Under the pieces are notes generated by a model. It did no database searches and was not told where the DNA came from. It saw only the letters and a program-made list of their open reading frames with translations. The position numbers and the translations under genes are program-made. A stretch of 17,462 bases of DNA from contig JACMOF010000199.1 in NCBI GenBank assembly GCA_014378155.1, positions 1 to 17,462 of the forward strand. The letters are read 5' to 3'. Source of the DNA: Caulobacter sp. GTDB lineage: Bacteria > Pseudomonadota > Alphaproteobacteria > Caulobacterales > Caulobacteraceae. Numbering within the stretch: position 1 is the first letter of the stretch; every line of letters begins with the position of its first letter. This document shows, piece by piece, positions 1 to 15,369 of this stretch.

Positions 1-1
1 C

Positions 2-618
2 ACCATCCGGGTGAGCCGCCGCGAGCGCAGGCATCTGAACCTGTCGGTCCTTCCGGAACGCTATCTCAATGCGCCGGGCCTGTTGGGCATGGACTGGCTG
101 GGCGAGCGGGAGCTGACACTGGACGTGGCGGGCAAGCAACTGCACGTCGGGCCAGCCTGCCCAAGACCGATGAGCTCAGCGTCACGGCGCCCACAAAGCT
201 GCGTCGCGGCGGGTTGGCCTTGATCAAGGCCCTGGCCGCCGGGGTCCCGACCCTTGCCTTCCTGGACACAGGCTCCACCACCACGGTCGGCAACGGGGCT
301 TTGATGGACATCGCCATTCAGCGACGGGGCGTCACCAGCGCCTGGACCGAAACCCAACTGGTCAGTCTGACGGGACAAATGCCGGACGGTCGCTTGGCCG
401 CGCTCAAGCGTCTGAAGCTGGATCCGATCAGCCTGATCAACCTGCCCCTGGTCTTTGGCCCGGTTCATACCTTCGATTATTGGGGGACTTCCGACCGGCC
501 CGCCCTGCTGCTGGGCATGGACGTTTTGAGCATCTTCGAGACCGTTTTGCTCGACTATCGGCGGGGCGCTGTCCATTTTCAACTGTCGCGGTCATCGGTG
601 GACTCGGCCATGTCTTGA
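2..618 (+). pseudogene. Retropepsin-like aspartic protease, two domains, frameshifted, 5' end outside window
   Basis: The reading frame is open from base 2 and shows the end of one retropepsin-like domain (LLGMDWL at about 83-103, then a short strand and turn). A second full domain follows, with the catalytic LDTGS motif near 262-276 and the closing LLGMDVL motif near 511-531; it ends with TGA at 618. The two parts are in different frames. The first continues sensibly to the GGG at 149-151, and the second becomes sensible from GCC at 151. Restoring one G to that run would join them as a single protein, so a G was either lost or missed in sequencing. Two tandem domains of the gag-like aspartyl protease family (PF13650 type) are known in bacterial exported proteins. 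The start, any signal peptide and the first catalytic Asp lie outside the window. The product is confident at family level; the substrate is unknown. Confidence 0.7.
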
Positions 619-664
619 CCGGTCGCTCGCCGCTCTCCAATGGTTGTTTGAACGGAGTGCGTCG

Positions 665-2455
665 ATGAGTTTGCCGGCTAGGTTGAAGCGTGAACTGCGG
701 TTCCTGAAAGGGCTTACGCGGACCCTCAAGCGCGTGAAGTCCATCGCTCCCGACAGCGGCAACCTGATCTGCGATGACCTGGAAGCCGCCGTCGACAAGT
801 GGTCGGGCAGCCCGGCCATCACCTTTGAAGGCAAGACCGTCAACTACGGCGAACTGGACGCCATCGCCAACCGCTATGCCCACTGGGCCAAGGGCCAGGG
901 GATCACGCGCGGCGCCACCGTGGCGCTGTTCATGCCCAACCGGCTGGAATATCTGGCCATCTGGTATGGCCTGTCCAAGGTCGGGGTCGCCACCGCCCTG
1001 ATCAACAACCAGTTGACCGGGCCCGCCCTGGCCCACTGCCTGAACATCTCCCAGGCCCTGCACTGCATCGTCGACGCCGAGACCTCGCCCTGTTTCGAAC
1101 AGGCGAAGGGGGCGCTAGACCGCCACGTCCAGCAGTGGGTGATGGGACCGGCGCACGGCGACCAGCGCGACCTGGTCAACGCCCTGAAGAGCTGCAGCCA
1201 TCTACGCCCAGACCGCCTGACGGCGCGCAACGGCATCACCGCCAAGGACACAGCCCTCTACATCTTCACCAGCGGCACCACGGGTCTGCCCAAGGCCGCG
1301 CGCATCACCCACATGCGCGCTCAACTCTATATGCGCGGCTTCGCGGGCTCGACCGACGCCCGCGCCACCGACCGCATCTACGTCACCCTGCCGCTGTATC
1401 ACGCCACCGGCGGCCTCTGCGCCATGGGCGCGGCCCTGCTGAACGGCGGCAGCGTGCTGCTGCGCAAGAAGTTTTCAGCCAGCCAGTTCTGGGACGACTG
1501 CGTCAACGAGCGCTGCACGATGTTCGTCTATATCGGCGAGCTGTGCCGCTATCTGGCCAACCACCCCGAAAGCCCCAACGAGCGGGCCCACAAGATCCGG
1601 CTGATCTTCGGCAATGGCCTGCGCCCCGACGTCTGGGACACCATGCTCGACCGCTTCAAGGTGGGTGGCGTGCTGGAGTTCTATGGCGCGACCGAGGGCA
1701 ACGTCTCGTTGTTCAACTTCGACGGCCGGCGCGGGGCGATCGGCCGGATCCCGAAATATCTGCGCAGCAAGTTCAACATCCGCATCGTCAAGTTCGACGT
1801 CGAGACCGAGATGCCGGTGCGCGGCTCCGACGGCTGCTGCATCGAGGCGGCGCCCGGCGAGATCGGCGAGTGCATCGGCCACATCGCCAGCGACGCCCGC
1901 TCCAACTTCACCGGCTACGCCGACAAGGCCGCCACCGAGAAGAAGATCCTGCACGACGCCTTCCAGAAGGGCGACGCCTGGTTCCGCACCGGCGACCTGA
2001 TGTGCGGCGACAGCGACGGCTACCTCTATTTCATCGACCGGATCGGCGACACCTTCCGCTGGAAAGGCGAGAACGTCGCCACCAGCGAGGTCTCCGAGCG
2101 CCTGTCCGGCGTCGAGGGCGTCAAGGAGGTCAATGTCTATGGCGTGCCGGTCGGCGACCTGGACGGCAAGGCCGGCATGGCCGCCTTGGTGGTCGGGCCG
2201 GAGTTCGACATCAACGCCCTGGCCGACTATGTCGATCGCGAGATGCCGGCCTATGCCCGTCCGATCTTCGTGCGCCTGCAGCCCGAGATCGAGACCACCG
2301 GCACCTTCAAATATCGCAAAATGGACCTGGTCAAGGAGGGCTTCGATCCCGCCAACACCAAGGATCCGCTCTATTTCCGCGATCAGGCCAAGGGCTATGT
2401 GAAGCTGACCAAGACGGTCCACGCCAAGATTCTGGCGGGCGGTTACCGGCTGTAG
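665..2455 (+). CDS. Long-chain/very-long-chain acyl-CoA synthetase, FATP type
   Basis: This 596-residue ANL-superfamily enzyme should activate long-chain fatty acids to acyl-CoA via acyl-AMP. Visible motifs are the phosphate-binding loop YIFTSGTTGLPKAAR (about residues 199-213), YGATEGN (340-346), and RIGDTFRWKGENVATSEV near 459-476; the last is the signature of the FATP/very-long-chain subfamily rather than of FadD. The C-terminal TGTFKYRK segment (about 546-553) carries the adenylation lysine region. The ATG at 665 has GGAG seven bases upstream. An in-frame TTG at 644 adds only seven residues and has no better ribosome site. A lipoprotein esterase follows on the same strand after 69 bp. It lies just across from the sphingolipid operon, so it could supply acyl-CoA for that pathway, but general fatty-acid uptake is equally possible. 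Confidence 0.88.
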   Translation: MSLPARLKRELRFLKGLTRTLKRVKSIAPDSGNLICDDLEAAVDKWSGSPAITFEGKTVNYGELDAIANRYAHWAKGQGITRGATVALFMPNRLEYLAIWYGLSKVGVATALINNQLTGPALAHCLNISQALHCIVDAETSPCFEQAKGALDRHVQQWVMGPAHGDQRDLVNALKSCSHLRPDRLTARNGITAKDTALYIFTSGTTGLPKAARITHMRAQLYMRGFAGSTDARATDRIYVTLPLYHATGGLCAMGAALLNGGSVLLRKKFSASQFWDDCVNERCTMFVYIGELCRYLANHPESPNERAHKIRLIFGNGLRPDVWDTMLDRFKVGGVLEFYGATEGNVSLFNFDGRRGAIGRIPKYLRSKFNIRIVKFDVETEMPVRGSDGCCIEAAPGEIGECIGHIASDARSNFTGYADKAATEKKILHDAFQKGDAWFRTGDLMCGDSDGYLYFIDRIGDTFRWKGENVATSEVSERLSGVEGVKEVNVYGVPVGDLDGKAGMAALVVGPEFDINALADYVDREMPAYARPIFVRLQPEIETTGTFKYRKMDLVKEGFDPANTKDPLYFRDQAKGYVKLTKTVHAKILAGGYRL

Positions 2456-2524
2456 GCGTCCGGGCTCCGTGCAACGCCGTATCTTGAGCGGCGTGGGCAT
2501 GGGGCGCATGAGGTGGAGCGGGGC

Positions 2525-3391
2525 ATGGTCGGATCGATGACGCGGAGAGCCGGGCTGATCGCGCTGGCGGGGTCTATGGCCTCGGCCTGTTCGCCGCTGT
2601 CGCTGTTCGCCACCTTCACGCCCAAGGACGCCGCCAAGCTCAGCGAGCACGGCGCCGCCTATGGGACCCTGGAGCGGCAGGTGCTGGATGTCTATGCGCC
2701 CAAGCGCGAGACGACCCCGGCCCCGGTGGCGGTGTTCTTCTATGGCGGTTCCTGGGATTCCGGACGTCGGCAGGACTACGGCTGGGTGGGCCGGGCCCTG
2801 GCGGCCCAGGGCTTCCTGACAATCGTGCCTGACTATCGGCTCTATCCGGCCGTGCGCTATCCCAGCTTCATCGCGGACGGGGCCTTGGCCGTGCGCTGGG
2901 CCATCGAGCATGCCCGGGGGCTGGGCGGCGATCCGGACCGGCTCGTGCTGGTCGGCCATTCGGCCGGCGCCTATATCGCCGCCATGCTGGCGCTCGATGA
3001 CCGCTACCTGAAGACCGCCGGCGTCGATCCCAAGGCCGTGAAGGCGCTCGCTGGCCTGTCTGGTCCCTACGACTTTCTGCCGCTGGACGGGCCGATCACC
3101 CGGCAGACCTTCGGCGAGGCCCGCGACCTGCCCGCCACCCAGCCGGCGCGCTACGCCAAGGCCGGATCGCCGCCGGCCTTCCTGGCCACCGGCGACGCCG
3201 ACACCACCGTCAAACCGCGCAACACTGTGGCTTTGGCCGCCGGTCTTCGGGCCAAGGGCGTGGCGGTGGAGGAGCGTCACTATGCGGGGCTGAATCACGC
3301 CGACACGGTGCTGGCCCTCTCCAAGCCCTTGCGCGGCAAGGCGCCGGTGCTGGCGGAGATGGTGGGGTTTTTGAAAGCACGGGTGTCGTAA
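2525..3391 (+). CDS. Lipoprotein alpha/beta-hydrolase (esterase, BD-FAE/kynurenine-formamidase-like)
   Basis: A 288-residue serine hydrolase with a probable lipoprotein signal: TRR, then a hydrophobic stretch and the lipobox-like ASAC with Cys22, so it is probably anchored in the cell envelope. The fold-3 type oxyanion segment reads YGGSW (73-77; the usual HG is replaced by YG), the nucleophile elbow is GHSAG with Ser146, and the likely acid and base are Asp226 (GDADTTV) and His258 (LNHAD). Length and motif order fit small carboxylesterases of the BD-FAE family. ATG 2525 was chosen because AGGTGGAG lies six bases upstream; a GTG at 2513 is in frame but overlaps that site. The gene follows the acyl-CoA synthetase by 69 bp and may be cotranscribed with it. 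The substrate cannot be predicted. Ala at -3 of the lipobox is not ideal, so cleavage by signal peptidase I is an alternative. Confidence 0.82.
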   Translation: MVGSMTRRAGLIALAGSMASACSPLSLFATFTPKDAAKLSEHGAAYGTLERQVLDVYAPKRETTPAPVAVFFYGGSWDSGRRQDYGWVGRALAAQGFLTIVPDYRLYPAVRYPSFIADGALAVRWAIEHARGLGGDPDRLVLVGHSAGAYIAAMLALDDRYLKTAGVDPKAVKALAGLSGPYDFLPLDGPITRQTFGEARDLPATQPARYAKAGSPPAFLATGDADTTVKPRNTVALAAGLRAKGVAVEERHYAGLNHADTVLALSKPLRGKAPVLAEMVGFLKARVS

Positions 3392-3425
3392 AATTCCGCT
3401 CATCGCGGCGAATGCCGGGATGTGG

Positions 3426-3524
3426 ATTCACACTTGAAGTGCACCGCTCCTCAAACGTGAGGTGATCATAGGCTTGTCCCATCGCAACACCTCGGTCAGA
3501 GAGTGTTGCACTTCGTTTGTGAAC
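3426..3524 (-). mobile_element. IS30-family remnant, internally deleted (MITE-like)
   Basis: The two ends are imperfect inverted repeats: ATTCACACTTGAAGTGCACC on the + strand at 3426-3445 and GTTCACAAACGAAGTGCAAC on the - strand from 3524, sharing TTCACA and GAAGTGCA blocks. Reading leftwards from ATG at 3482 gives MGQAYDHLTFEERC, which matches the usual N-terminus of IS30-type transposases; the frame then runs straight into the opposite end. Nearly the whole transposase gene is missing. A perfect 7-bp dyad (GCAACAC at 3484-3490, GTGTTGC at 3503-3509) sits upstream of the ATG. The exact outer ends and a target duplication could not be fixed. Confidence 0.65.
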
Positions 3525-3571
3525 TCAGGGGACCCAGATTCAGCCGGAGCGGCTCGTGGGTTTCACCTGGG

Positions 3572-3589
3572 CCCCGGCCTTCGCCGGGG
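3572..3589. repeat. REP-like GC hairpin
   Basis: CCCCGGC, loop CTTC, GCCGGGG: a perfect 7-bp stem inside the phrase ACCTGGGCCCCGGC...GGGGAGACGG. This wording resembles dispersed extragenic palindromes seen in Caulobacter-type genomes. It lies between the convergent 3' ends of the esterase gene and spt and could help end transcription, but there is no T-run on either side. Only one copy is visible in the window. Confidence 0.45.
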
Positions 3590-3647
3590 AGACGGAAAAG
3601 GGGTGAGGGCCCGGCGCCGAGCTGCTGCCCCCCTGAACTCGAGAAAA

Positions 3648-4865
3648 CTAGGCCGAGACGCGCTTCAGCGGGCTCTCGATAAGGCCCATGGCCGTGCCGA
3701 CGTGCTTGAACACCGCCAGAACCTGGTCGATCTGCTCGTCGGTGTGGGCGGCGCTGACGCTGGTGCGCAGCAGCGGGCGGCTGTCCGGGGTGGCGGGCGG
3801 CAGGGCTAGGTTCAGATAGACCCCGCTCTGCAGCAAGGCGTTCCACATGCCGATCGCGCTTTCGACATTCGGCATGGTGATCGCCACGATCGGGCTGGAG
3901 GTCGGTCCGGTCATGTAGCCCAGGCCGCTCAAGCCGTCATACAGGCGGAGAGCGTTGGCCATCAGCTTGTGGCGCAGCTCGGGCTGTTCTTCCAGGCGGC
4001 GCAGGGCGGTGATCGTCGAGCTGACCACGGCCGGGGGCAACGAAGCGGTGAACATGTAGGGACGGCAGGTGACGCGCATGACGTCGAAGTCGTCCATGTC
4101 GGACACGCAAAATCCGCCGATGGCGCCCAGGCTCTTGGAGAAGGTGCCGACCACGAAATCGACGTCGTCTTCCACGCCGGCCAGTTCGGCCAGGCCGCGG
4201 CCGTGCTCGCCGAGCACGCCCATCGAGTGGGCCTCGTCGACCAGCAAATAGCCGCCCAGCTCGCGCTTCACGGCGGCGATTTCCTTGAGCGGCGCGATGT
4301 CGCCGATCATTGAATAGATGCCCTCGACCACGATCAGGCGCTCGCCGGGCACGTCCTTCATGCGGCGCAGGCGCTTGTACAGGTCTTCGGGGTCGTTGTG
4401 GCGGAAGCGGATGACCTCGGCATGGCCCAGGCGCGCGCCGTCATAGATCGAGGCGTGGCTGTCGGCGTCGAGGATCAGATGGTCGCCCCGGCCCACCAGG
4501 GTGGACAGCACGCCCAGATTGGCCTGGTAGCCGGTGGTGAACACCATGGCGTGCTTGCGCTTGTAGAACTTGGCCAGCGCCGTCTCGAGCTCGACATGGG
4601 CCTCGAAACTGCCGTTGGCGATGCGGGAACCGGTGGTGCCGGTGCCACGTTCCTGCACGGCCTTGACGGAAGATGCGATCGCCTCGGCGTCGAAGGTCAG
4701 GCCCAGATAGTTGTTCGTCCCCAGTAGAATGGTGCGTTTGCCGTTGATCACGCCCTCGGTGGGCGAGGTGACGGCGTCGAAGCGCACGCTGAAGGGATCG
4801 GCGCCCGCTAGCCGGATGGCGTTGTAGGCGTCGCGATATGCGATGTGCTTGTCGAAAAGCCCCAT
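3648..4865 (-). CDS. spt: Serine palmitoyltransferase (sphingolipid long-chain base synthesis)
   Basis: A 405-residue PLP-dependent alpha-oxoamine synthase that should condense L-serine with a fatty acyl thioester to give 3-ketosphinganine, the first step of sphingolipid synthesis in the cytoplasm. The PLP lysine is Lys244 in GTFSKSLGAIGGF. Asp210 and His213 lie in LLVDEAHSMGVLG, His137 in DADSHASIYDG stacks on the cofactor, and Arg367 in LLRTSVSAAH is placed to bind the carboxylate. Length and motifs also fit 2-amino-3-ketobutyrate-CoA ligase or 8-amino-7-oxononanoate synthase. The direct neighbourhood (dedicated ACP three bases upstream, ceramide reductase, acyl-ACP synthetase) decides for SPT, as in Caulobacter crescentus. 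It is the last gene of the leftward array. The stop TAG is at 3650-3648, with no clear terminator after it apart from the REP-like hairpin. Confidence 0.92.
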   Translation of the reverse strand: MGLFDKHIAYRDAYNAIRLAGADPFSVRFDAVTSPTEGVINGKRTILLGTNNYLGLTFDAEAIASSVKAVQERGTGTTGSRIANGSFEAHVELETALAKFYKRKHAMVFTTGYQANLGVLSTLVGRGDHLILDADSHASIYDGARLGHAEVIRFRHNDPEDLYKRLRRMKDVPGERLIVVEGIYSMIGDIAPLKEIAAVKRELGGYLLVDEAHSMGVLGEHGRGLAELAGVEDDVDFVVGTFSKSLGAIGGFCVSDMDDFDVMRVTCRPYMFTASLPPAVVSSTITALRRLEEQPELRHKLMANALRLYDGLSGLGYMTGPTSSPIVAITMPNVESAIGMWNALLQSGVYLNLALPPATPDSRPLLRTSVSAAHTDEQIDQVLAVFKHVGTAMGLIESPLKRVSA

Positions 4866-4868
4866 TTC

Positions 4869-5120
4869 TCAGGCCCTATTCCGAAGGTCTTTGATCAGGT
4901 CCGCCAAGTCTCCGGCCGTTTCGACCGAACCCAGGCGATCCAGAGGAATGGAGATGTCGAAGGTGTCTTCGAGCTCCATGATGATGTTCATCAAGGCCAA
5001 GGAATCGACGGCCAGATCGCGGCCGATATGGGTAACGTTCGTCACCTCGACCGAACGTCCGAGCACCTTGCCCGTCGCCAAGCCAATTTCACGCAAAGTG
5101 AGATCCGTAACTGCTTCCAT
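4869..5120 (-). CDS. acpR: Acyl carrier protein dedicated to sphingolipid synthesis
   Basis: A small acidic 83-residue carrier protein with the phosphopantetheine attachment serine at Ser40 in AVDSLALMN, followed by a typical helix II and the ELEDTFDISIPLD segment. Length and layout are those of a free-standing ACP, but it is clearly not the housekeeping AcpP. It is encoded three bases before spt. In C. crescentus the corresponding ACP is needed for ceramide formation and is thought to present the acyl chain, loaded by the acyl-ACP synthetase encoded two genes upstream in this operon, to SPT. A 59-bp gap separates it from the ceramide reductase gene, the only real break in the array. No strong ribosome site is seen before ATG 5120. 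Confidence 0.9.
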   Translation of the reverse strand: MEAVTDLTLREIGLATGKVLGRSVEVTNVTHIGRDLAVDSLALMNIIMELEDTFDISIPLDRLGSVETAGDLADLIKDLRNRA

Positions 5121-5153
5121 CGAACGCGCCGATATCCCCGACCAAAAACCTAC

Positions 5154-5183
5154 ATAACCGAATTGTAACAGCCGTCCTGTCAG
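5154..5183 (-). promoter_or_regulatory. Possible promoter for acp-spt
   Basis: In the AT-richer gap before acp, the - strand carries CTGACA (5183-5178), an 18-base spacer and GGTTAT (5159-5154), which would place a transcript start about 25-30 bases before the acp ATG. The match to a -35/-10 pair is weak. The case rests mainly on the gap itself and on the terminator-like hairpin just before it. Confidence 0.25.
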
Positions 5184-6166
5184 AAAATCGCCGTATTCGG
5201 CGACTTCTGAGCTTTTTTATCCTTCAACCAACCCTTGGAGCGATACCACCGCACGCTGTGCGCGAATCCCTCCGCCAGAGCGTAACGCACCGGGGGAAAG
5301 TCCGGAATCGGATCGTTGCTAGATAGGGCCCAATCCCCGTGAAGCAACTCCCGGGCCTTGCCGGGGGTGAAGATTGAGTCGCTCCCGGTGGCGATCGAGA
5401 CCCATTTTGAGAAATTCGCCAAAGACTTGATCACCCAGGCGGGAATACGGATCAATCGGGGCGACGTGCCGACCGCCTTGGAAGCGGTCTGCATGAGTTC
5501 GATCCAGCCATACCCGCCAAGACGGTCGTCGGACAAGCTGAGCAGGCCAGGACGCGGCAATTTGACCAGATGGGCGAAACGCGCGGCGGCGTCGTCGACA
5601 TGGATCCAGGCCATCCGCGCCGCGGGGTCGAGTACGGGCAGGAAGGCGCTTCGCGACGCCATTTCGAACAGCCTCAACGTCTCCATGTCGCTGGGGCCGT
5701 AGATGGCGGGCGGGCGGACGATGGTCAGGGCGTCGCCGAACGCCTCGCGCGCCGCGTCCTCGCCGCCGCGCTTGCTGCCGGCATAGTCCGACAGGTGAGG
5801 CTCGCGCGCCGCCAGGCTGGACACCAGGATCAGTCGCGCGCCGGCCGCCTTGGCCGCCCCCGCGACGCGCCGCGCGCCATCGACATTGGCCCGGTCGAAC
5901 GCCGCGCGGGAGGGGGCCTTGATCAGGCCGGCCACGTGGACAACGACCTTGGCCCCGTCGCACAGCGCCGCGAGGGCTGGCGCGTCGGCCAGGTCGCCGA
6001 TCACCAGCTGTGGTTCAAGGTCGGTCCAGGCGGGGTCGGCGATGTCGCGGCGGGCCAACACCCGCACGGTCCAGCCGTCGGCCGCCAGGGCGGTGACCAC
6101 GCGCCGGCCAAGAAAGCCCGTGGCGCCGGTGACGGCAACGAGCCCCCTGACGGGCGTAGGGTCCAT
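5180..6166 (-). CDS. cerR: NAD-dependent epimerase/dehydratase family ceramide reductase
   Basis: A 328-residue extended short-chain dehydrogenase. The N-terminal Rossmann loop is TGATGFLG (Gly14, Gly17, Gly20), and the catalytic pair is Tyr128 and Lys132 in DYAGSK, with Ser116/117 before it. In Caulobacter crescentus the orthologue next to spt is required for sphingolipid synthesis and reduces the keto group of the oxidised ceramide intermediate; I assign the same role from position and family. The gene starts three bases after the acyl-ACP synthetase stop (TGAAAG before the ATG is a modest ribosome site), so the two are probably coupled. Its C-terminus is lysine-rich and its last codons are richer in AT than the rest, overlapping a small hairpin. 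Other substrates cannot be excluded from sequence alone, but the context is strong. Confidence 0.88.
   Translation of the reverse strand: MDPTPVRGLVAVTGATGFLGRRVVTALAADGWTVRVLARRDIADPAWTDLEPQLVIGDLADAPALAALCDGAKVVVHVAGLIKAPSRAAFDRANVDGARRVAGAAKAAGARLILVSSLAAREPHLSDYAGSKRGGEDAAREAFGDALTIVRPPAIYGPSDMETLRLFEMASRSAFLPVLDPAARMAWIHVDDAAARFAHLVKLPRPGLLSLSDDRLGGYGWIELMQTASKAVGTSPRLIRIPAWVIKSLANFSKWVSIATGSDSIFTPGKARELLHGDWALSSNDPIPDFPPVRYALAEGFAHSVRWYRSKGWLKDKKAQKSPNTAIF
5184..5203 (-). terminator. Terminator-like hairpin overlapping the end of the ceramide reductase gene
   Basis: Read leftwards, TCGCCG, loop AATA, CGGCGA (5203-5188) forms a perfect 6-bp stem followed at once by TTTT (5187-5184, the last T's shared with the stem's flank) and then the stop codon TGA at 5182-5180. 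The stem is short, so it is more likely an attenuator or partial stop than a full terminator. Confidence 0.4.
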
Positions 6167-6169
6167 CTT

Positions 6170-7890
<1,721 letters not shown>

Positions 7891-7891
<1 letters not shown>

Positions 7892-9249
7892 CAGGGCACG
7901 CCTTTGGCGCCGTTTTTGTCATCGGCGCAAGTTTGTTCATCGCCCGGCGCGGCGGACATCCGGCCCAAGCTTTGCCGCAGAGTGAGGAACATGCCCAGCG
8001 CCATGGCGGCGGCAGCGGCCACCAACGCCGCCCCGGCCCCACTCAGGCCGAGGTTCTTGATCAGAGGCACGAGGGCCAGCAGATAGAGGGCGCAGACCAC
8101 CACGCGGACCCGCAAGGCGGCCCCCGCCTGGTTCAGCGAGACCAGCATCGGCTCCAGCGGCAGGGCTAGCAGGCCGATGGCGGCGGCGGGGACCTGCCAG
8201 GTCATGATCCCGGCGGCGGCGGCGAACGGCTTGCCCATCACCAGCGCCAGGAGAGGCTCGCCGAACAGGGCAGTGACCAGCAGCAGGGCCCCGGCCACCG
8301 CGCTGCCCATCAGCGCGATCTGGCCGGCCAGCCTGCGCATGGCCATCTCGCCGCCCGTGGCCCGCAACTTGGCCAGTTCAGGATAGAGCGCCGGCACCAG
8401 CAGCTTGGCGGGTTTGGCCATGCCGTCGGCCACCTGTCGGCCAACCCGCCACAGCGCCGCCTGGGCCGGGCCCAGCACCGCCCCGACCACCAGGGTGATC
8501 ACCTGGGTGAAGGCGGTGTCGAGGCTGCCGTTGAAATTGGTCGCCCAGGCAAAGCGCCAGGCGCCGGGCAGGCCCTCGCTGAGCGGTCCCCGGAAGGTGA
8601 ACCCGTCCAGCAGCTTGCGCCGCGCCAGGTCCCACCAGGCCACGCCAATCACATACAGGAACGAGGCCACCGTCCCCGCCGCCCAGGCGGCCAGGAACCC
8701 GCCGATCGGCGCGTGCAGCGCGAAGGCCACGGCGCAGCCGACCAGGCGCACCGCCGAACTGACCGCCTGCTCGGCGGCCAGGAAGCGGAAGCGGTCGAAC
8801 AGGCGCAGCAGGCCGACGGCGGTGGCCGAGGTCATCATGGCGATCGATAGGGCGTAGAGCGCGGCGGCCGGCGCCAGCTCGCGCGGCCAGCCCAGGGCTC
8901 CGCCCAGCAGCAACGCGCCGCTGGCGCCCAGACTCACGCCAACGGCGGCGCCGATCAAGTCGAGCAGCAGCGTGAACCGCAGGACTTGCTGGAAGCGGGA
9001 TCGATCACCTTGCAGCAACGGCCCGGTCCCGTACTGCAGCACGGTCTGCCAGGACTGGAACTTCGCGACGTCGCCCAGGAACTGGGCGAAGGCGTTGATC
9101 AGCACCAGCATGCCCAGTTGAACCGCGCCAAGGCCGCGCGCGGTCAGGGCGATATAGGCCAGTCCGACCAAGGCGTTGACGGTGCGTCCGCCGAGCAGGG
9201 TGCCGGCATTGGCCAGGACCCGCTTCAGAACACGAGAGTCCTGGGTCAT
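7891..9249 (-). CDS. MOP/Wzx-like lipid or polysaccharide flippase
   Basis: A 452-residue, very hydrophobic protein with roughly 12-14 predicted membrane segments spread over its whole length and a short polar tail. It resembles the polysaccharide-biosynthesis (Wzx/MurJ-like, MOP superfamily) transporters that move lipid-linked substrates across the inner membrane. Family assignment rests on the helix pattern, the early QFLGDVAKF segment and the overall length; no catalytic motif exists in such proteins. It overlaps the upstream transferase gene by four bases (ATGA) and the downstream acyl-ACP synthetase gene by one. Being locked between a head-group-type transferase and the ceramide genes, it may flip a modified sphingolipid or a sphingolipid-linked glycan. 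An unrelated O-antigen role is the main alternative. Confidence 0.75.
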
Positions 9250-10415
9250 CGTCCGTGGCGGCTCGACATCGGCAGCCGCTCGACGATCGCGCGGGCGGCG
9301 CGGACCGAGGAGGGCGTTTCCTGCAGGTCGAAGCTTTCAGCAAAGCCTCGCACCTGGACGTCGCTATAGGCGCCGTGGCCGCGCCGCGCTGAGGCGATCG
9401 CGTCAACCAGGCCCTCGACGCTGTCCAGCACCGGACCATAGAGCCAGTGATGAAAGCTCTCATCGCCCTGCCAGGCGGCGTCCGAGGCGTTGAGGAACAG
9501 GCACGGCTTAGGCGTGCGCAGGAACTCGTAGACCTGGCTGGAGACGTCGCCCAGATAGAGGTCGGCCGCGCGGGTATAGGTCATGTCGATCGCGGCGGGC
9601 CCCCCAAGGTCCAGATGGATGCGCGGATGATCGACGAAGGAGGCCAGGGCGTCCACCGTCCGCGGATCCGCGCCGTCGAAGAGGCGGATATGGGGGGCGA
9701 AGATCAGATTGTAACGGTCGTCCGCCGCGAAGGCCTCAAGCACCTGCCGACCCCAGCGCGGCCACGAACCCAGGGTGGGATGGAAATGGGGGTTGTACAG
9801 CACCACCGGCCTGGCCTGGGCGAACACCGGCAGCGGCGAGCCGGGCAGGGCGTCGATGATGTCGAACTTGGGATAACCGACCATGGCGCAGGTCTGGGGC
9901 GTCACCCAGCCCTCGGCGATCATCCGGTCGTACTGCTTGGGTCCGGCGGCCATGACCAGGTCGAAGGCCTTCAGGCGCGGCTCGAACGGCCCGCCGCGAT
10001 CGCCGGCGCCGTGCTGGGTGTAGACCAGCTTGCAGTCCTTGACCCCGAGCTTGCGCAGCAGGGCGGTGGTGCGCTCGGGCGTGACGACGGCGTCGTAGCG
10101 GCCCAAGCGCTGGGCGTTGGCGGCCAGCATCAGGGCCTTGGGCGGGGTCGAGGCGCCCTTCAGCCGCAGGTTCCGCAGCCAGCTTGGCGGTAGCAAACGC
10201 GAGGTGATCGGCGCGCCGCCAAGCTGGGCCAGCAAACCACGCACATAGTCCAGGTGCTCGGCCGTGGTGGCGGCGATCTCGACCTCGACGTCCGGCCAGC
10301 CGCGCGCCAGAGCGACAGCGATCGGCAGGCTGTGCAGAATCTGGTGGGTCTGGGCGATGAACAGGAAACAGACCCGGGGCCTGGCGCCGTTCGCCTTGGC
10401 GTCGGTCTGGATCAC
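9246..10415 (-). CDS. CDP-glycerol:glycerophosphotransferase-like (TagB/TagF family) protein
   Basis: 389 residues with a two-Rossmann, GT-B-like plan. Landmarks are YTQHGAGDR (His135), VGYPKFD (179-185), NPHFHPTLGSW (208-218), a second histidine in FAPHIR (His242) and DLYLGDVSSQVYEF (285-298). The last corresponds to the SD/DYSS element that binds the nucleotide donor in TagB/TagF glycerophosphate transferases. The start is GTG at 10415, overlapping the upstream LptC-like stop by four bases (GTGA), so they are coupled. The family transfers polyol-phosphate or sugar-like groups from CDP- or other nucleotide donors. Because C. crescentus sphingolipids can carry phosphoglycerate head groups, this enzyme is a candidate for a head-group step; that is inference. 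It has no signal peptide or membrane helix, so it acts on the cytoplasmic side. Confidence 0.68.
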   Translation of the reverse strand: MIQTDAKANGARPRVCFLFIAQTHQILHSLPIAVALARGWPDVEVEIAATTAEHLDYVRGLLAQLGGAPITSRLLPPSWLRNLRLKGASTPPKALMLAANAQRLGRYDAVVTPERTTALLRKLGVKDCKLVYTQHGAGDRGGPFEPRLKAFDLVMAAGPKQYDRMIAEGWVTPQTCAMVGYPKFDIIDALPGSPLPVFAQARPVVLYNPHFHPTLGSWPRWGRQVLEAFAADDRYNLIFAPHIRLFDGADPRTVDALASFVDHPRIHLDLGGPAAIDMTYTRAADLYLGDVSSQVYEFLRTPKPCLFLNASDAAWQGDESFHHWLYGPVLDSVEGLVDAIASARRGHGAYSDVQVRGFAESFDLQETPSSVRAARAIVERLPMSSRHGR

Positions 10416-11029
10416 TTTTGCGGTGTGATGCGCGTGCGCACCCGGCCCTTGAAGATTACCCGGTCGCCCTTGTCGCTGGCCGAATAGCTGTCGGCCTGGA
10501 TGGCGCTGTTGTTCGGGCCCAGGCCCTGCACGGCGGCGCCGCCGACCAGGTCGCCGGTGCGGGTGTCGATCAGGGCCTTCTGCGAGGCGAACTGATAGCC
10601 TTGGCCATTGTCGATCTTGACGTCGCCGGTCAGCAGCAGCGAGCCCTTCTCCTCCTTATAGACGCCGTCCTTGGACGCGACGTGGGTAGGGGCGTCGGAG
10701 CCGTAGCCGCGCGTCAGCTGAGGGGTCTTGAGAAACACCTGGTCGGGATTGGCCGGATCGCGCGTGGCCGAACTGGCGGTGATCAGGAAGGCGCGGCCGT
10801 CCTTCATCGCGCCCGTGAAGCGGGGATTGTCCATGCGCAGCGATGCGCCCGAGGCGACGGGCGCGTCCTTGGCCGCCAGGGCGCGGATCGTGCCCTGGCC
10901 GACGATGGTCACGGCCACGCCGATGGCGATGACCGGCAGGAGCAGGCGCAAGGCCCGCACCGACGGGCGGTGGCGGTTGCGGTTCTTCTTGCGGATCGGA
11001 TGGGCGGTGGCGGGGGTGAGGGCGATCAT
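10412..11029 (-). CDS. LptC-like periplasmic lipid export protein
   Basis: A 205-residue protein with a basic N-terminus (residues 10-25), one membrane helix (about 26-46) and a beta-rich periplasmic domain with the repeated strand phrases typical of LptC/LptA jellyrolls (GVYKEEKGSLLLTGDV, then a GRVRTRI end). LptC bridges the inner-membrane LptBFG exporter to LptA and passes lipopolysaccharide across the periplasm. The housekeeping lptC of alphaproteobacteria normally sits before lptA, lptB and rpoN, none of which is here, so this looks like a second copy. As the first gene of the sphingolipid operon it may carry sphingolipid rather than LPS. ATG 11029 was chosen; it lies 95 bases after the upstream same-strand gene, and no convincing promoter was found there. 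Confidence 0.75.
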   Translation of the reverse strand: MIALTPATAHPIRKKNRNRHRPSVRALRLLLPVIAIGVAVTIVGQGTIRALAAKDAPVASGASLRMDNPRFTGAMKDGRAFLITASSATRDPANPDQVFLKTPQLTRGYGSDAPTHVASKDGVYKEEKGSLLLTGDVKIDNGQGYQFASQKALIDTRTGDLVGGAAVQGLGPNNSAIQADSYSASDKGDRVIFKGRVRTRITPQK

Positions 11030-13198: not shown

Positions 13199-14755
13199 TT
13201 ACTTCCCCACGCTCTCCAGCAGCCGCAGCCGGGCAATGTCCGGATCGGCCACCAGCCGCGTCTCCGGCCCGATCAGCATCTTCTTCGGCGACGTCTCAGG
13301 CGTGTAGGCGGTCCACGGTGGCAGGCCCGGGCCATTGGGGTCGCCAGACCGCGCGAAATTCACCCAATAGGACGACATCTGGTCGGCCACGCGGCGATCG
13401 ACGGCGTCCACCGTCCAGGTCTTGAGGATCTCCGGGTGGTCGAACACATAGACGATGTCGGCCGAATGGAAGGCGCCGAAGCTCTTGCCGCGATTGTTCG
13501 CCCCGAACCAGTCGTCCGGCGTCTTGGGCGCATGGTCGAAGCGGTAGACATAGACGGGCGCCTTGCCTGTGCGGGACTGGGCCGTGGCCCAGCGCCAGGT
13601 TGGCAGGCCCATCCACAGGTCGCCGGCATACATGACCCGCGAGGCCTGGGCCGTGGCGGCCGGATCGGCCGGATAATGCGCCAGGGCCTCGCCGACCCGC
13701 GCGCCGAAGCGCTCGGCCAGCACCTGCTGCAGGGCCTTGGCGCCAAACACGCCGCCTTCCATCAGGCTGCCCTCGTCATGGTTCCAGCCGACCAGCAGCG
13801 GCACGTCCGACTGCTGGTGGTCGTCGAAGGTAGCGGGGGCGGAGGCCGGAAGGATCCAGCCGTCGAGGACGGGGCCGAAGTTCAGGCCGGTGTCGGGCGC
13901 GACCCATAAGGCCAGGATCTCGGCCGACGAGCGGCCGCGCAGTTGGGCCAGGGTCTGGCCGCCCAGGGCCTTGCCGAACGCCACGCCCACCGCCTCGCCC
14001 TGGGCCAGGGTCTTGTCATCGCCCAGCATGCCGAAGGCCGAGCCGCTCTCGCCGATGGCGCGGTGAAACAGGCCCTTGGCCTGGGGCGAGATCATCAGTC
14101 GGCTGACGGCGTCTGGTCCCGCCGACTCCCCGGCGATGGTGACGTTGTTCGGGTCGCCACCGAAGGTCTTGGCGTTGTCGCGCACCCAGCGCAGGGCGGC
14201 GATCATGTCGGCCAGGGCCTGGTCGCCGCTGGCGTGGTTCGGCGATTCGGCCGTCAGTTCGGGATGGGCCAGGAAGCCGAAGGCGCCCAGGCGATAGTTG
14301 ATGGTCACCACCACCACGCCCTTGCGGGCCAGACCCACGCCGTCGTGACGCGGCTCGGCGCCCGACCCCGCGCCATAGCCGCCGCCGTGGATCCAGAAGA
14401 ACACCGGCAGGGCCTGGCCCGGCTTCGCGGCGGTGCTGACGTTCAGATATAGGCAGTCCTCGCTCATCGACGGGGTGAAGGGGTCAAGGTCGGCGTAGCG
14501 CTTGGGCTGCAGGCAGTTGGGGGAGAAGGCGTCAGCGGGACGCACGCCGGTCCAGGGCTGGACGGGGGCCGGCGGCTTCCAGCGGCGCTCGCCGGTCGGC
14601 GGGGCGGCGTAGGGCAGGCCCCTGTAGACGCGCACGCCGTCAGGCGCGGCGGGGGTGGCGGCGATCTCACCGCCAGTGACCTTCAGGGTCTGGGCGGCGG
14701 CGGGTGTGGCCAGCAACGCCAGGACCAGCAAGGGCAGGGCGAAGGCGCGGATCAT
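13199..14755 (-). CDS. Secreted type-B carboxylesterase
   Basis: 518 residues with a cleavable signal peptide (IRAFALPLLVLALLATPAAA, about 2-21). Type-B carboxylesterase motifs appear in order: EDCLYLNV (99-106), the oxyanion HGGGY (123-127), the nucleophile elbow GESAG with Ser211, the acid Glu328 in NHDEGS and the base His430 in GAFHSADIVYVF. It should hydrolyse esters in the periplasm or outside the cell. The residues after the elbow are PDAV where most family members have G/A-rich sequence, a small oddity. ATG 14755 overlaps the TGA of the cyclophilin gene by four bases, and the signal peptide begins there; longer readings upstream run through the cyclophilin gene. The substrate is unknown. 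Confidence 0.88.
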   Translation of the reverse strand: MIRAFALPLLVLALLATPAAAQTLKVTGGEIAATPAAPDGVRVYRGLPYAAPPTGERRWKPPAPVQPWTGVRPADAFSPNCLQPKRYADLDPFTPSMSEDCLYLNVSTAAKPGQALPVFFWIHGGGYGAGSGAEPRHDGVGLARKGVVVVTINYRLGAFGFLAHPELTAESPNHASGDQALADMIAALRWVRDNAKTFGGDPNNVTIAGESAGPDAVSRLMISPQAKGLFHRAIGESGSAFGMLGDDKTLAQGEAVGVAFGKALGGQTLAQLRGRSSAEILALWVAPDTGLNFGPVLDGWILPASAPATFDDHQQSDVPLLVGWNHDEGSLMEGGVFGAKALQQVLAERFGARVGEALAHYPADPAATAQASRVMYAGDLWMGLPTWRWATAQSRTGKAPVYVYRFDHAPKTPDDWFGANNRGKSFGAFHSADIVYVFDHPEILKTWTVDAVDRRVADQMSSYWVNFARSGDPNGPGLPPWTAYTPETSPKKMLIGPETRLVADPDIARLRLLESVGK

Positions 14756-15369
14756 GCGGCGGCCCGTTTCATGCTGAGGATTTGAACCGGGGGGTTCAGG
14801 AACTCGCCCTTCATCGCCGGCACGGGAGCGGGACCGTCGCTGCGTAGGGCCAGGATCGTCTTGACGATCGCCAGGCCCTCGACGACCTGGCCGAACGCCG
14901 CGAAGCCCTGGTTGTCGCCAGGCGCGCCCGGATGGGCGTCGAGATAGGGCAGGGGATTGGCGCAAATGAAGAAGTCGGCCGTGGCGGTGCCGGGCGCATT
15001 GCGAGTGATCGAAATCGTCCCGGCCTTGTGCTTCAGGCCGGTTGTCCGCGTGCTTTCATGGGCGATCGGGGCGAAACGCCGGGCCCGAGCTGCGGGTCCG
15101 CCCTGGATCGTCCCCGCGCCCTTGACGCCCTTGGTGCGCGCCGCCCGATAGATCGTGCCGCCGTCGTATTTGTGGGCGTCCACATAGCGCAGGAAGTTGC
15201 CGGCGGTGATTGGGGCCTTGGCGGTTTCCAGCTCGACCACGATGGCGCCGTGATTGGTCTGGATGACCACGCGCGGCTTAGCTGTCGCCGCCAGGGCGTC
15301 TAGGGGACTAGCCGCCAGCAGTCCGGCGGCGCCCAGCAGGCTTCGACGGCGGATCGTTGCGCTGTCCAT
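14752..15369 (-). CDS. Peptidyl-prolyl cis-trans isomerase, cyclophilin type, Tat-exported
   Basis: 205 residues with a twin-arginine leader (IRRRSLLGAAGLL, residues 6-18, and a likely cut after DALA near 27), then a cyclophilin domain: VVIQTNHGAIVVEL, the catalytic Arg75 in GTIYRAAR, Gln89 in TIQGG, ADFFIC (131-136) and FAAFGQVVEGL (156-166). It should catalyse proline isomerisation in the periplasm. The loop between the catalytic Arg and Gln is about six residues longer than in E. coli PpiB, as in a known divergent cyclophilin group. A perfect AAGGAGG lies six bases before ATG 15369. It is coupled to the carboxylesterase gene by a 4-bp overlap and follows the thiolase gene by 59 bases. Confidence 0.88.
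   Translation of the reverse strand: MDSATIRRRSLLGAAGLLAASPLDALAATAKPRVVIQTNHGAIVVELETAKAPITAGNFLRYVDAHKYDGGTIYRAARTKGVKGAGTIQGGPAARARRFAPIAHESTRTTGLKHKAGTISITRNAPGTATADFFICANPLPYLDAHPGAPGDNQGFAAFGQVVEGLAIVKTILALRSDGPAPVPAMKGEFLNPPVQILSMKRAAA

Follow-up and report, generated by a model that had tools for sequence, protein, structure and literature searches.

What is a gene for a TagB-like protein doing in an operon for the synthesis and export of sphingolipids? The question is raised by a stretch of 17,462 nucleotides (hereafter the window), contig JACMOF010000199.1 (C552) of the Caulobacter sp. assembly GCA_014378155.1, which consists of 598 contigs and is 85% complete. Seven frames on its minus strand, all found at 3648..11029 where the original prediction had placed them, encode an LptC2-like protein, the TagB-like protein, a Wzx-like flippase and four proteins of ceramide synthesis. 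The sphingolipid region CC_1168-CC_1152 of C. crescentus has been described (PMC11324152): CC_1168 is LptC2, CC_1166 a potential flippase and CC_1165-1162 are ceramide genes, and an export role has been proposed for CC_1168, CC_1166, CC_1156 and CC_1155. Genes CCNA_01210-01226 have been named a sphingolipid biosynthesis and export cluster (PMC12633290); in 2024 the authors of PMC11087976 had as yet identified neither a flippase nor a lipid transporter. Since both the operon and the idea of export are in print, the seven-gene unit itself is not new, and the coupling of synthesis, flipping and Lpt-like export put forward in the original prediction, while supported here, had already been proposed (PMC11324152).

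We read the operon as a unit that makes and exports a sphingolipid. For its TagB-like member we favour, with appreciably more confidence than doubt, the reading that it is a phosphotransferase acting on the head group and paired with a Wzx-like flippase for sphingolipids, that export via LptC2 follows, and that flippase and transferase form an exchangeable cassette. Taken separately, it is highly probable that the flippase carries the head-group-bearing lipid, and quite likely that the TagB-like enzyme adds a phospho-alcohol to the sphingolipid head group.

A first line of evidence is co-occurrence. In a sample of 200 genomes from the order, searched with self-chosen E-value thresholds (TagB-like 1e-3, flippase 1e-20, CpgD 1e-25, CpgA 1e-15, Spt 1e-110), Spt is present in 66 genomes, the flippase in 50, the TagB-like protein in 25, CpgD in 30 and CpgA in 31. 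All 25 TagB-like genomes, the window's own included, contain both Spt and the flippase, and 49 of the 50 flippase genomes are Spt-positive; two of the 25 matches are fragments (G371 with 68 residues and one stop, G398 with 58 residues) and that of G303 has one in-frame TGA. Outside the window's genus the coincidence holds for 12 of 12 TagB-like genomes (hypergeometric p 1.2e-7, kinship ignored); within it, the TagB-like gene occurs in 13/13 Spt-positive genomes (one remnant, one with a stop) and in 0/3 that are Spt-negative. The genes are also linked: the flippase lies at most 15 kb from spt in 35 genomes (22 outside the genus), and the TagB-like gene lies at most 15 kb from spt in 17 (4 outside) and from the flippase in 21 (8 outside). 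In a class sample of 240 genomes (Spt threshold 1e-90) the TagB-like protein was found in six and Spt in 32, with an overlap of five of the six. Strict dependence of TagB on Spt is rejected at this level by G091, which is TagB-positive and Spt-negative; strict exclusion of TagB by CpgA or CpgD is rejected as well, the window's genus, G390 and G422 carrying both.

A scan of genome contigs with the TagB-like protein yielded 47 loci, 32 of them close (67-84% identity; Caulobacter, Phenylobacterium and further relatives), in which the presence of TagB is given by construction because this protein was the query. Operon order is kept in all 32: thirty contain all seven genes (one with Spt cut by the contig end), and the remaining two are cut off by the end of the contig, their first genes standing in this order. 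The gene row is not due to chance. At its end, the TagB-like frame of 32/32 loci contains a codon from which the flippase could start, the overlap being 4 bp in 30, and the junction between LptC2 and the TagB-like gene varies from a 4-bp overlap up to 90 bp; the junction script picked the start codon closest to the upstream stop. Genes in relatives were called by codon preference trained on each locus, so that gene ends are approximate; in G256 the HAD gene escaped the caller and was located with tblastn. Outside Caulobacter, Phenylobacterium and their relatives the complete row of seven was not encountered. In g205, a genus of the same family, two of the three Spt-positive genomes keep flippase-ligase-CerR-ACP-Spt (ACP, acyl carrier protein) without a TagB-like gene; the stretches read gave no hit for LptC2 in these two, and that of the third showed no flippase and no TagB-like gene. 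A natural deletion in G398 has left about 56 codons of the TagB-like gene (L137, G398:C1:1525500-1535500, 7159-7326) between LptC2 and flippase, the other operon genes and the cpg genes being retained; the TGA within the operon copy of G303 (G303:C29:38700-39824) is possibly a second loss or a sequencing error. Since the gene was lost in G398 and is absent from G259 and G323, its product would be a tailoring and not a core enzyme.

The second line of evidence comes from genus g214, whose seven Spt-positive genomes in the order sample have one common cluster: ligase-ACP-Spt; CpgC, CpgB, LptG2, LptF2; then DUF2141-CerS-CC1153-flippase-HAD-slot-hydroxylase, with a cyclopropane synthase between slot and hydroxylase in four genomes. 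The slot is occupied by TagB in three of the seven (G256, G355, G405), by CpgD in two (G266, G335), in which the flippase frame continues into CpgA, and by an ATP-grasp protein plus a second CC_1153-like nucleotidyltransferase in the other two (G261, G345). This third type lies at L153 11220-13036 and L154 11532-13348. Flippase and CpgA share a single frame in G266, G335 and also G390 (open frames of 842-847 codons); at L148 8117-10621 and L149 9317-11821 it amounts to 834 residues, and the open frame of G390 has 846 codons. CerR lies between ligase and ACP only in G256 and G355; the other five, for example G405 (L144, 2100-5411), have no CerR-like gene at this place by gene layout, and a search of 17 kb of G405 gave no hit for CerR. 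When 18 g214 genomes were searched, TagB-like proteins turned up in 10: five at >=70% identity, two of them additional to G256, G355 and G405, all occupy the slot. Of five at 40-45%, four have a flippase as neighbour and, over the stretch read, no further gene of the cluster; for the fifth, nothing but the TagB-like gene was found.

Spt and hydroxylase trees place G405 with the ATP-grasp genomes (support 82/83 and 100/99, respectively) and G256/G355 with the CpgD genomes. The CerS tree agrees; it was computed without G345, whose CerS lies in two frames and was excluded from CerS comparisons. A clade of the TagB-slot genomes is rejected by Spt (p 2.4e-4), CerS (p 1.3e-4) and hydroxylase (p 0.0018), and the clades of this backbone are in turn rejected by the flippase data (p 4.1e-5 and 7.0e-6; 1.7e-4 after G438 and G440 had been added). 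HAD tests favour neither history. Flippases of one slot type share 65% identity on average, those of different types 48%. As reconstructed from these alignments, flippase history in g214 tracks the slot gene, not the backbone seen in Spt, and flippase and head-group transferase appear to behave as one exchangeable cassette.

Several points weigh against our reading. CC_1167, the TagB-like gene of C. crescentus, has been called 'probably unrelated' (PMC11324152); its mutants nevertheless show co-fitness with those of spt (0.57), which speaks for our reading, and of CC_1159 (0.54) (PMC11324152), values that polar effects could explain. All slot types of g214 are accompanied by a CC_1153-like gene, so that the donor proposed below is a candidate. 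The TagB-type flippase clade is weakly supported (71/78, then 66/66), in the second flippase tree the outgroup was flagged as a long branch, and slot groups were named after the identities had been seen, only G438 and G440 being added later.

The alternative that survives best, unlikely as we consider it, follows the published view: the operon would serve ceramide synthesis and phosphosphingolipid export via LptC2 and flippase, and the TagB-like protein would be a passenger of no relation to them that modifies a surface polysaccharide. We have added the polysaccharide to this view, PMC11324152 going no further than 'probably unrelated'. Apart from that wording and the loss of the gene in G398, this alternative draws on TagB-like paralogs that adjoin GT4 glycosyltransferases. 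Among the 15 distant loci of our scan (23-46% identity), a flippase relative is found near the TagB-like gene in eight and a gene of the GT4 cluster, for which Pfam was verified on three members, in ten; no Spt was present in the stretches covered. Ten sequences from such modules, G000 and G279 accounting for two, group in a clade of their own (100/100). The module of TagB-like gene, flippase and GT4 recurs in Sphingomonadales and Niveispirillum-type records (L046, L047, L049-L052), likewise without Spt in the stretches covered, which suggests a glycan- or glycolipid-directed branch. One such paralog resides in the genome under study (L095, G000:C439, 5534-12337; 47% identity). It adjoins a GT4 glycosyltransferase and a cyclopropane-synthase-like gene, with ABC, HlyD and outer-membrane efflux genes nearby. 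A passenger is, however, difficult to reconcile with close copies that always reside in the operon with frames able to overlap the flippase, with 25/25 TagB-positive genomes being Spt-positive, and with the exchange of TagB and CpgD within a sphingolipid cluster. On these comparisons the evidence contradicts 'probably unrelated' for CC_1167, and the head-group role originally predicted for the TagB-like protein has comparative data on its side while running contrary to that statement (PMC11324152).

Somewhat less probable still is a flippase without head-group specificity, the cassette exchange in g214 being ordinary recombination at a variable locus; the restriction of the pattern to nine genomes of one genus, the late naming of the groups and the weak TagB-type clade would fit such a view, but fusion of the flippase to CpgA in three genomes and its position at most 15 kb from spt in the 22 genomes outside the window's genus would not. 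The weakest alternative, for which we see little chance, makes the TagB-like protein the phosphoglycerate transferase of the route to ceramide phosphoglycerate (CPG) and CPG2, for a 'so-far unknown' further enzyme condensing (2-phospho)glycerate with activated ceramide might be needed according to the conclusions of PMC11324152 and in G422 TagB directly follows CpgD, yet G259 and G323 carry CpgA, CpgB, CpgC and CpgD without TagB (gene content only), G398 has kept CpgA and CpgD with its TagB-like gene mostly deleted, and CpgA fits the second step. A simple role as CDP-glycerate transferase for CPG2 (CDP, cytidine diphosphate) was weakened in addition by the CDP-alcohol transferase domain of CpgA, by nine of the 25 TagB-positive genomes that lack both CpgA and CpgD, and by the formation of CPG without CpgD (PMC11324152).

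Family assignment of the TagB-like protein is weak by Pfam alone: it reaches 12.4 bits with PF04464, below the gathering score of 22.1, and is therefore called a distant relative, not a family member. Fifteen of 23 TagB-like relatives match PF04464 at E<=0.01 (three also weakly match Glyco_transf_4), and those in G058 and G091 exceed the cut-off. A search of the PDB with the single sequence gave no match. The predicted structure aligns with TagF (VIA-align 24.2) and UDP-GlcNAc 2-epimerase (23.2) in what amounts to a tie, and Foldseek ranks an epimerase first and TagF 15th. Relatives and predicted folds together lend the assignment support. The flippase is likewise below the cut-off of PF01943 (22.1 versus 28.2 bits) and is therefore named Wzx-like; 14/22 of its relatives match this family at E<=0.01, and its model has a MOP fold that matches WzxE clearly better than any other structure. 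Its genomic context argues for a sphingolipid over a polyprenyl-linked glycan as cargo.

The preferred reading, a head-group transferase paired with its flippase, can be put in steps. Ceramide is built by Spt, ACP, acyl ligase and CerR, with CerS encoded elsewhere, as established in C. crescentus by others, CerR being reported as periplasmic (PMC11087976). A phosphoglycerate head group is built by the cpg genes, elsewhere in the genome, as others have established genetically and partly biochemically; CpgD makes CDP-glycerate and CpgA is the proposed transferase (PMC12275187). The TagB-like protein would then, as a cytoplasmic GT-B-fold phosphotransferase, take a CDP-alcohol and add a phospho-alcohol unit to the head group, the donor being perhaps CDP-glycerate or a CDP-linked relative from nucleotidyltransferases of the CC_1153/CpgD type. 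Within about 4 kb of the TagB-like gene, a CC_1153-like gene occurs in nine cases outside the genus (G256, G277, G341, G355, G405, G422, G436, L054, L058) and CpgD only in G422, apart from a 22% match near the distant L059. The row of G422 reads CpgA-HAD-CpgD-TagB; that of G175 has cpgA-cpgB-cpgC upstream of flippase-TagB-ligase-CerR-ACP-Spt; and in G436 flippase-TagB-CC1153-HIT-phosphoesterase lies beside cpgB-cpgC, with Spt on a different contig and no match for CpgA or CpgD in the genome. The flippase, matched to the head group, would bring the lipid with its head group across to the periplasmic leaflet, and LptC2 with LptF2/LptG2 would hand it to the outer membrane, as has been proposed in print. 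More tentatively, sphingolipid head groups of Alphaproteobacteria may be exchanged like O-antigen types, the Wzx-like flippase travelling with the TagB-like gene, CpgA/CpgD or the pair of ATP-grasp protein and nucleotidyltransferase while the rest of the cluster stays fixed; the Caulobacter operon might then represent a TagB type with a further, undescribed head group, possibly polymeric and teichoic-acid-like, in a Gram-negative outer membrane.

Coordinates of the unit and the basis of each assignment are compiled in the table below.

Features of the sphingolipid unit in the window
Feature	Position	Strand	Basis
LptC2-like periplasmic protein, 205 aa	10412..11029	-	PF06835 56.3 bits vs cut-off 21, E 4e-15
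TagB/TagF-like GT-B-fold transferase, 389 aa, proposed head-group phosphotransferase	9246..10415	-	CC_1167 ortholog by position
Wzx-like MOP-superfamily flippase, 452 aa	7891..9249	-	CC_1166 by position
Fatty acyl-AMP ligase / acyl-ACP synthetase, 573 aa (CC_1165, aasR)	6170..7891	-	NF006624 874.4 bits, cut-off 600
CerR-type NAD(P)-dependent reductase, 328 aa (CC_1164)	5180..6166	-	PF01370 E 4e-21 and position
Acyl carrier protein, 83 aa (CC_1163)	4869..5120	-	PF00550 E 6e-10 and position
Serine palmitoyltransferase Spt, 405 aa (CC_1162)	3648..4865	-	NF047599 674.6 bits, cut-off 500
Junction, end of synteny with relatives	3392..3647	.	DNA matching and gene layout of relatives

The four left-hand genes are the ceramide synthesis set, as had been proposed, Spt, ligase and ACP by families over their cut-offs and CerR by PF01370 and position. 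Coupling by overlaps or 3-bp gaps holds for five junctions (4-bp overlaps on both sides of the TagB-like gene, a 1-bp overlap of flippase and ligase, 3-bp gaps between ligase and CerR and between ACP and Spt) and not for CerR-ACP, which are 59 bp apart. The LptC-like protein stays below the cut-off of the equivalog TIGR04409 for export of lipopolysaccharide (LPS; 33.8 versus 38 bits). A second LptC-family gene of the genome, on contig C444, is presumably the LPS copy. Between 3300 and 12400 no sigma-70-like promoter was found, and six terminator-like sites are no excess over shuffles (mean 4.6); Rfam and transfer RNA scans of the window gave no matches. At 13199-15369 a carboxylesterase family gene (PF00135) overlaps one for a cyclophilin-type isomerase (PF00160), both ordinary neighbours.

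The original prediction had the seven genes make, decorate, flip and move the lipid. By themselves they do not suffice: contig C243 carries CpgA, phosphoesterase, HIT, LptF2, LptG2, CerS, a CC_1153-like gene and CpgD, together with a partial cpgB that runs into the contig end, and since head-group genes, ceramide synthase and LptF2/LptG2 reside there, the row is incomplete for the whole pathway. A DNA search of this genome gave no match for cpgC, and no relative of the DUF2141 gene was seen on C243 or found in the genome by these searches. The labels CpgA-D, CC_1153, CerS and LptF2/G2 on relatives are based on gene order and families, not on named sequences; that of the CpgD candidate also rests on a match to 4JD0. 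In relatives, cpgC-cpgB-cpgA follow spt convergently (by family in L013 and L025, with equal gene layout in L014 and L041), and they are absent from this place in the window, whose positions 1-3650 match, among the loci compared, only their own copy (L001). Near 3500-3440 the minus strand resembles what we take to be the start of an IS30-type transposase, and spt and the cpg genes may have been parted by an assembly join or by the scar of a mobile element.

Judged by title and beginning of abstract, the open-access literature searched contained no paper on a sphingolipid flippase and no further one on the flippase or TagB-like gene of this cluster; in the open-access literature searched there was likewise none on a glycerophosphotransferase acting on a sphingolipid or ceramide, and no description of an exchangeable flippase/head-group cassette. 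In the operon a Wzx-type flippase and a teichoic-acid-type transferase adjoin ceramide synthesis, and the genome comparison gives reason to test both in C. crescentus, in which several genes of the region have already been deleted (PMC11324152). Should enzyme and flippase be exchanged as a pair, sphingolipids would provide bacteria with a surface chemistry that varies in the manner of O-antigen; sensitivity to phages (PMC12633290), the response to polymyxin (PMC11324152) and survival in the absence of LPS (PMC12275187) might be affected.

Compared with C. crescentus CC_1168-CC_1162, the window has the identical seven genes in the order LptC2-TagB-like-flippase-aasR-cerR-acpR-spt and in a single direction, and most remaining genes of CC_1168-CC_1152 have relatives on C243; in contrast to that region, spt has no cpg genes next to it, and unlike PMC11324152 we take the TagB-like gene as a member of the pathway.

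With the TagB/TagF/TarL teichoic-acid transferases and Cps3D capsule polymerases of PF04464, the TagB-like protein would have a GT-B fold over about 330 residues in common, and profile alignments reveal a common SS-x2-Y-[D/E] motif; several relatives also have nucleotidyltransferase neighbours. It differs in its proposed acceptor, a ceramide phosphate lipid, and in its Gram-negative host. In comparison with Wzx (WzxE, lipid III) and MurJ, the flippase resides in an operon without genes for polyprenyl-glycan assembly, is fused to CpgA in three relatives and is tied to Spt in 49/50 genomes. The LPS exporter LptB2FGC has its counterparts in the LptC-family protein encoded here and in LptF2/LptG2 relatives elsewhere in the genome, window-type copies adjoining sphingolipid genes. 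In O-antigen type exchange, Wzx and Wzy change along with the sugar genes. Flippase history in the sphingolipid clusters likewise seems to track an exchangeable biosynthetic gene and not the conserved flanks, with the difference that here the lipid would be a sphingolipid and the exchanged gene that of a head-group enzyme.

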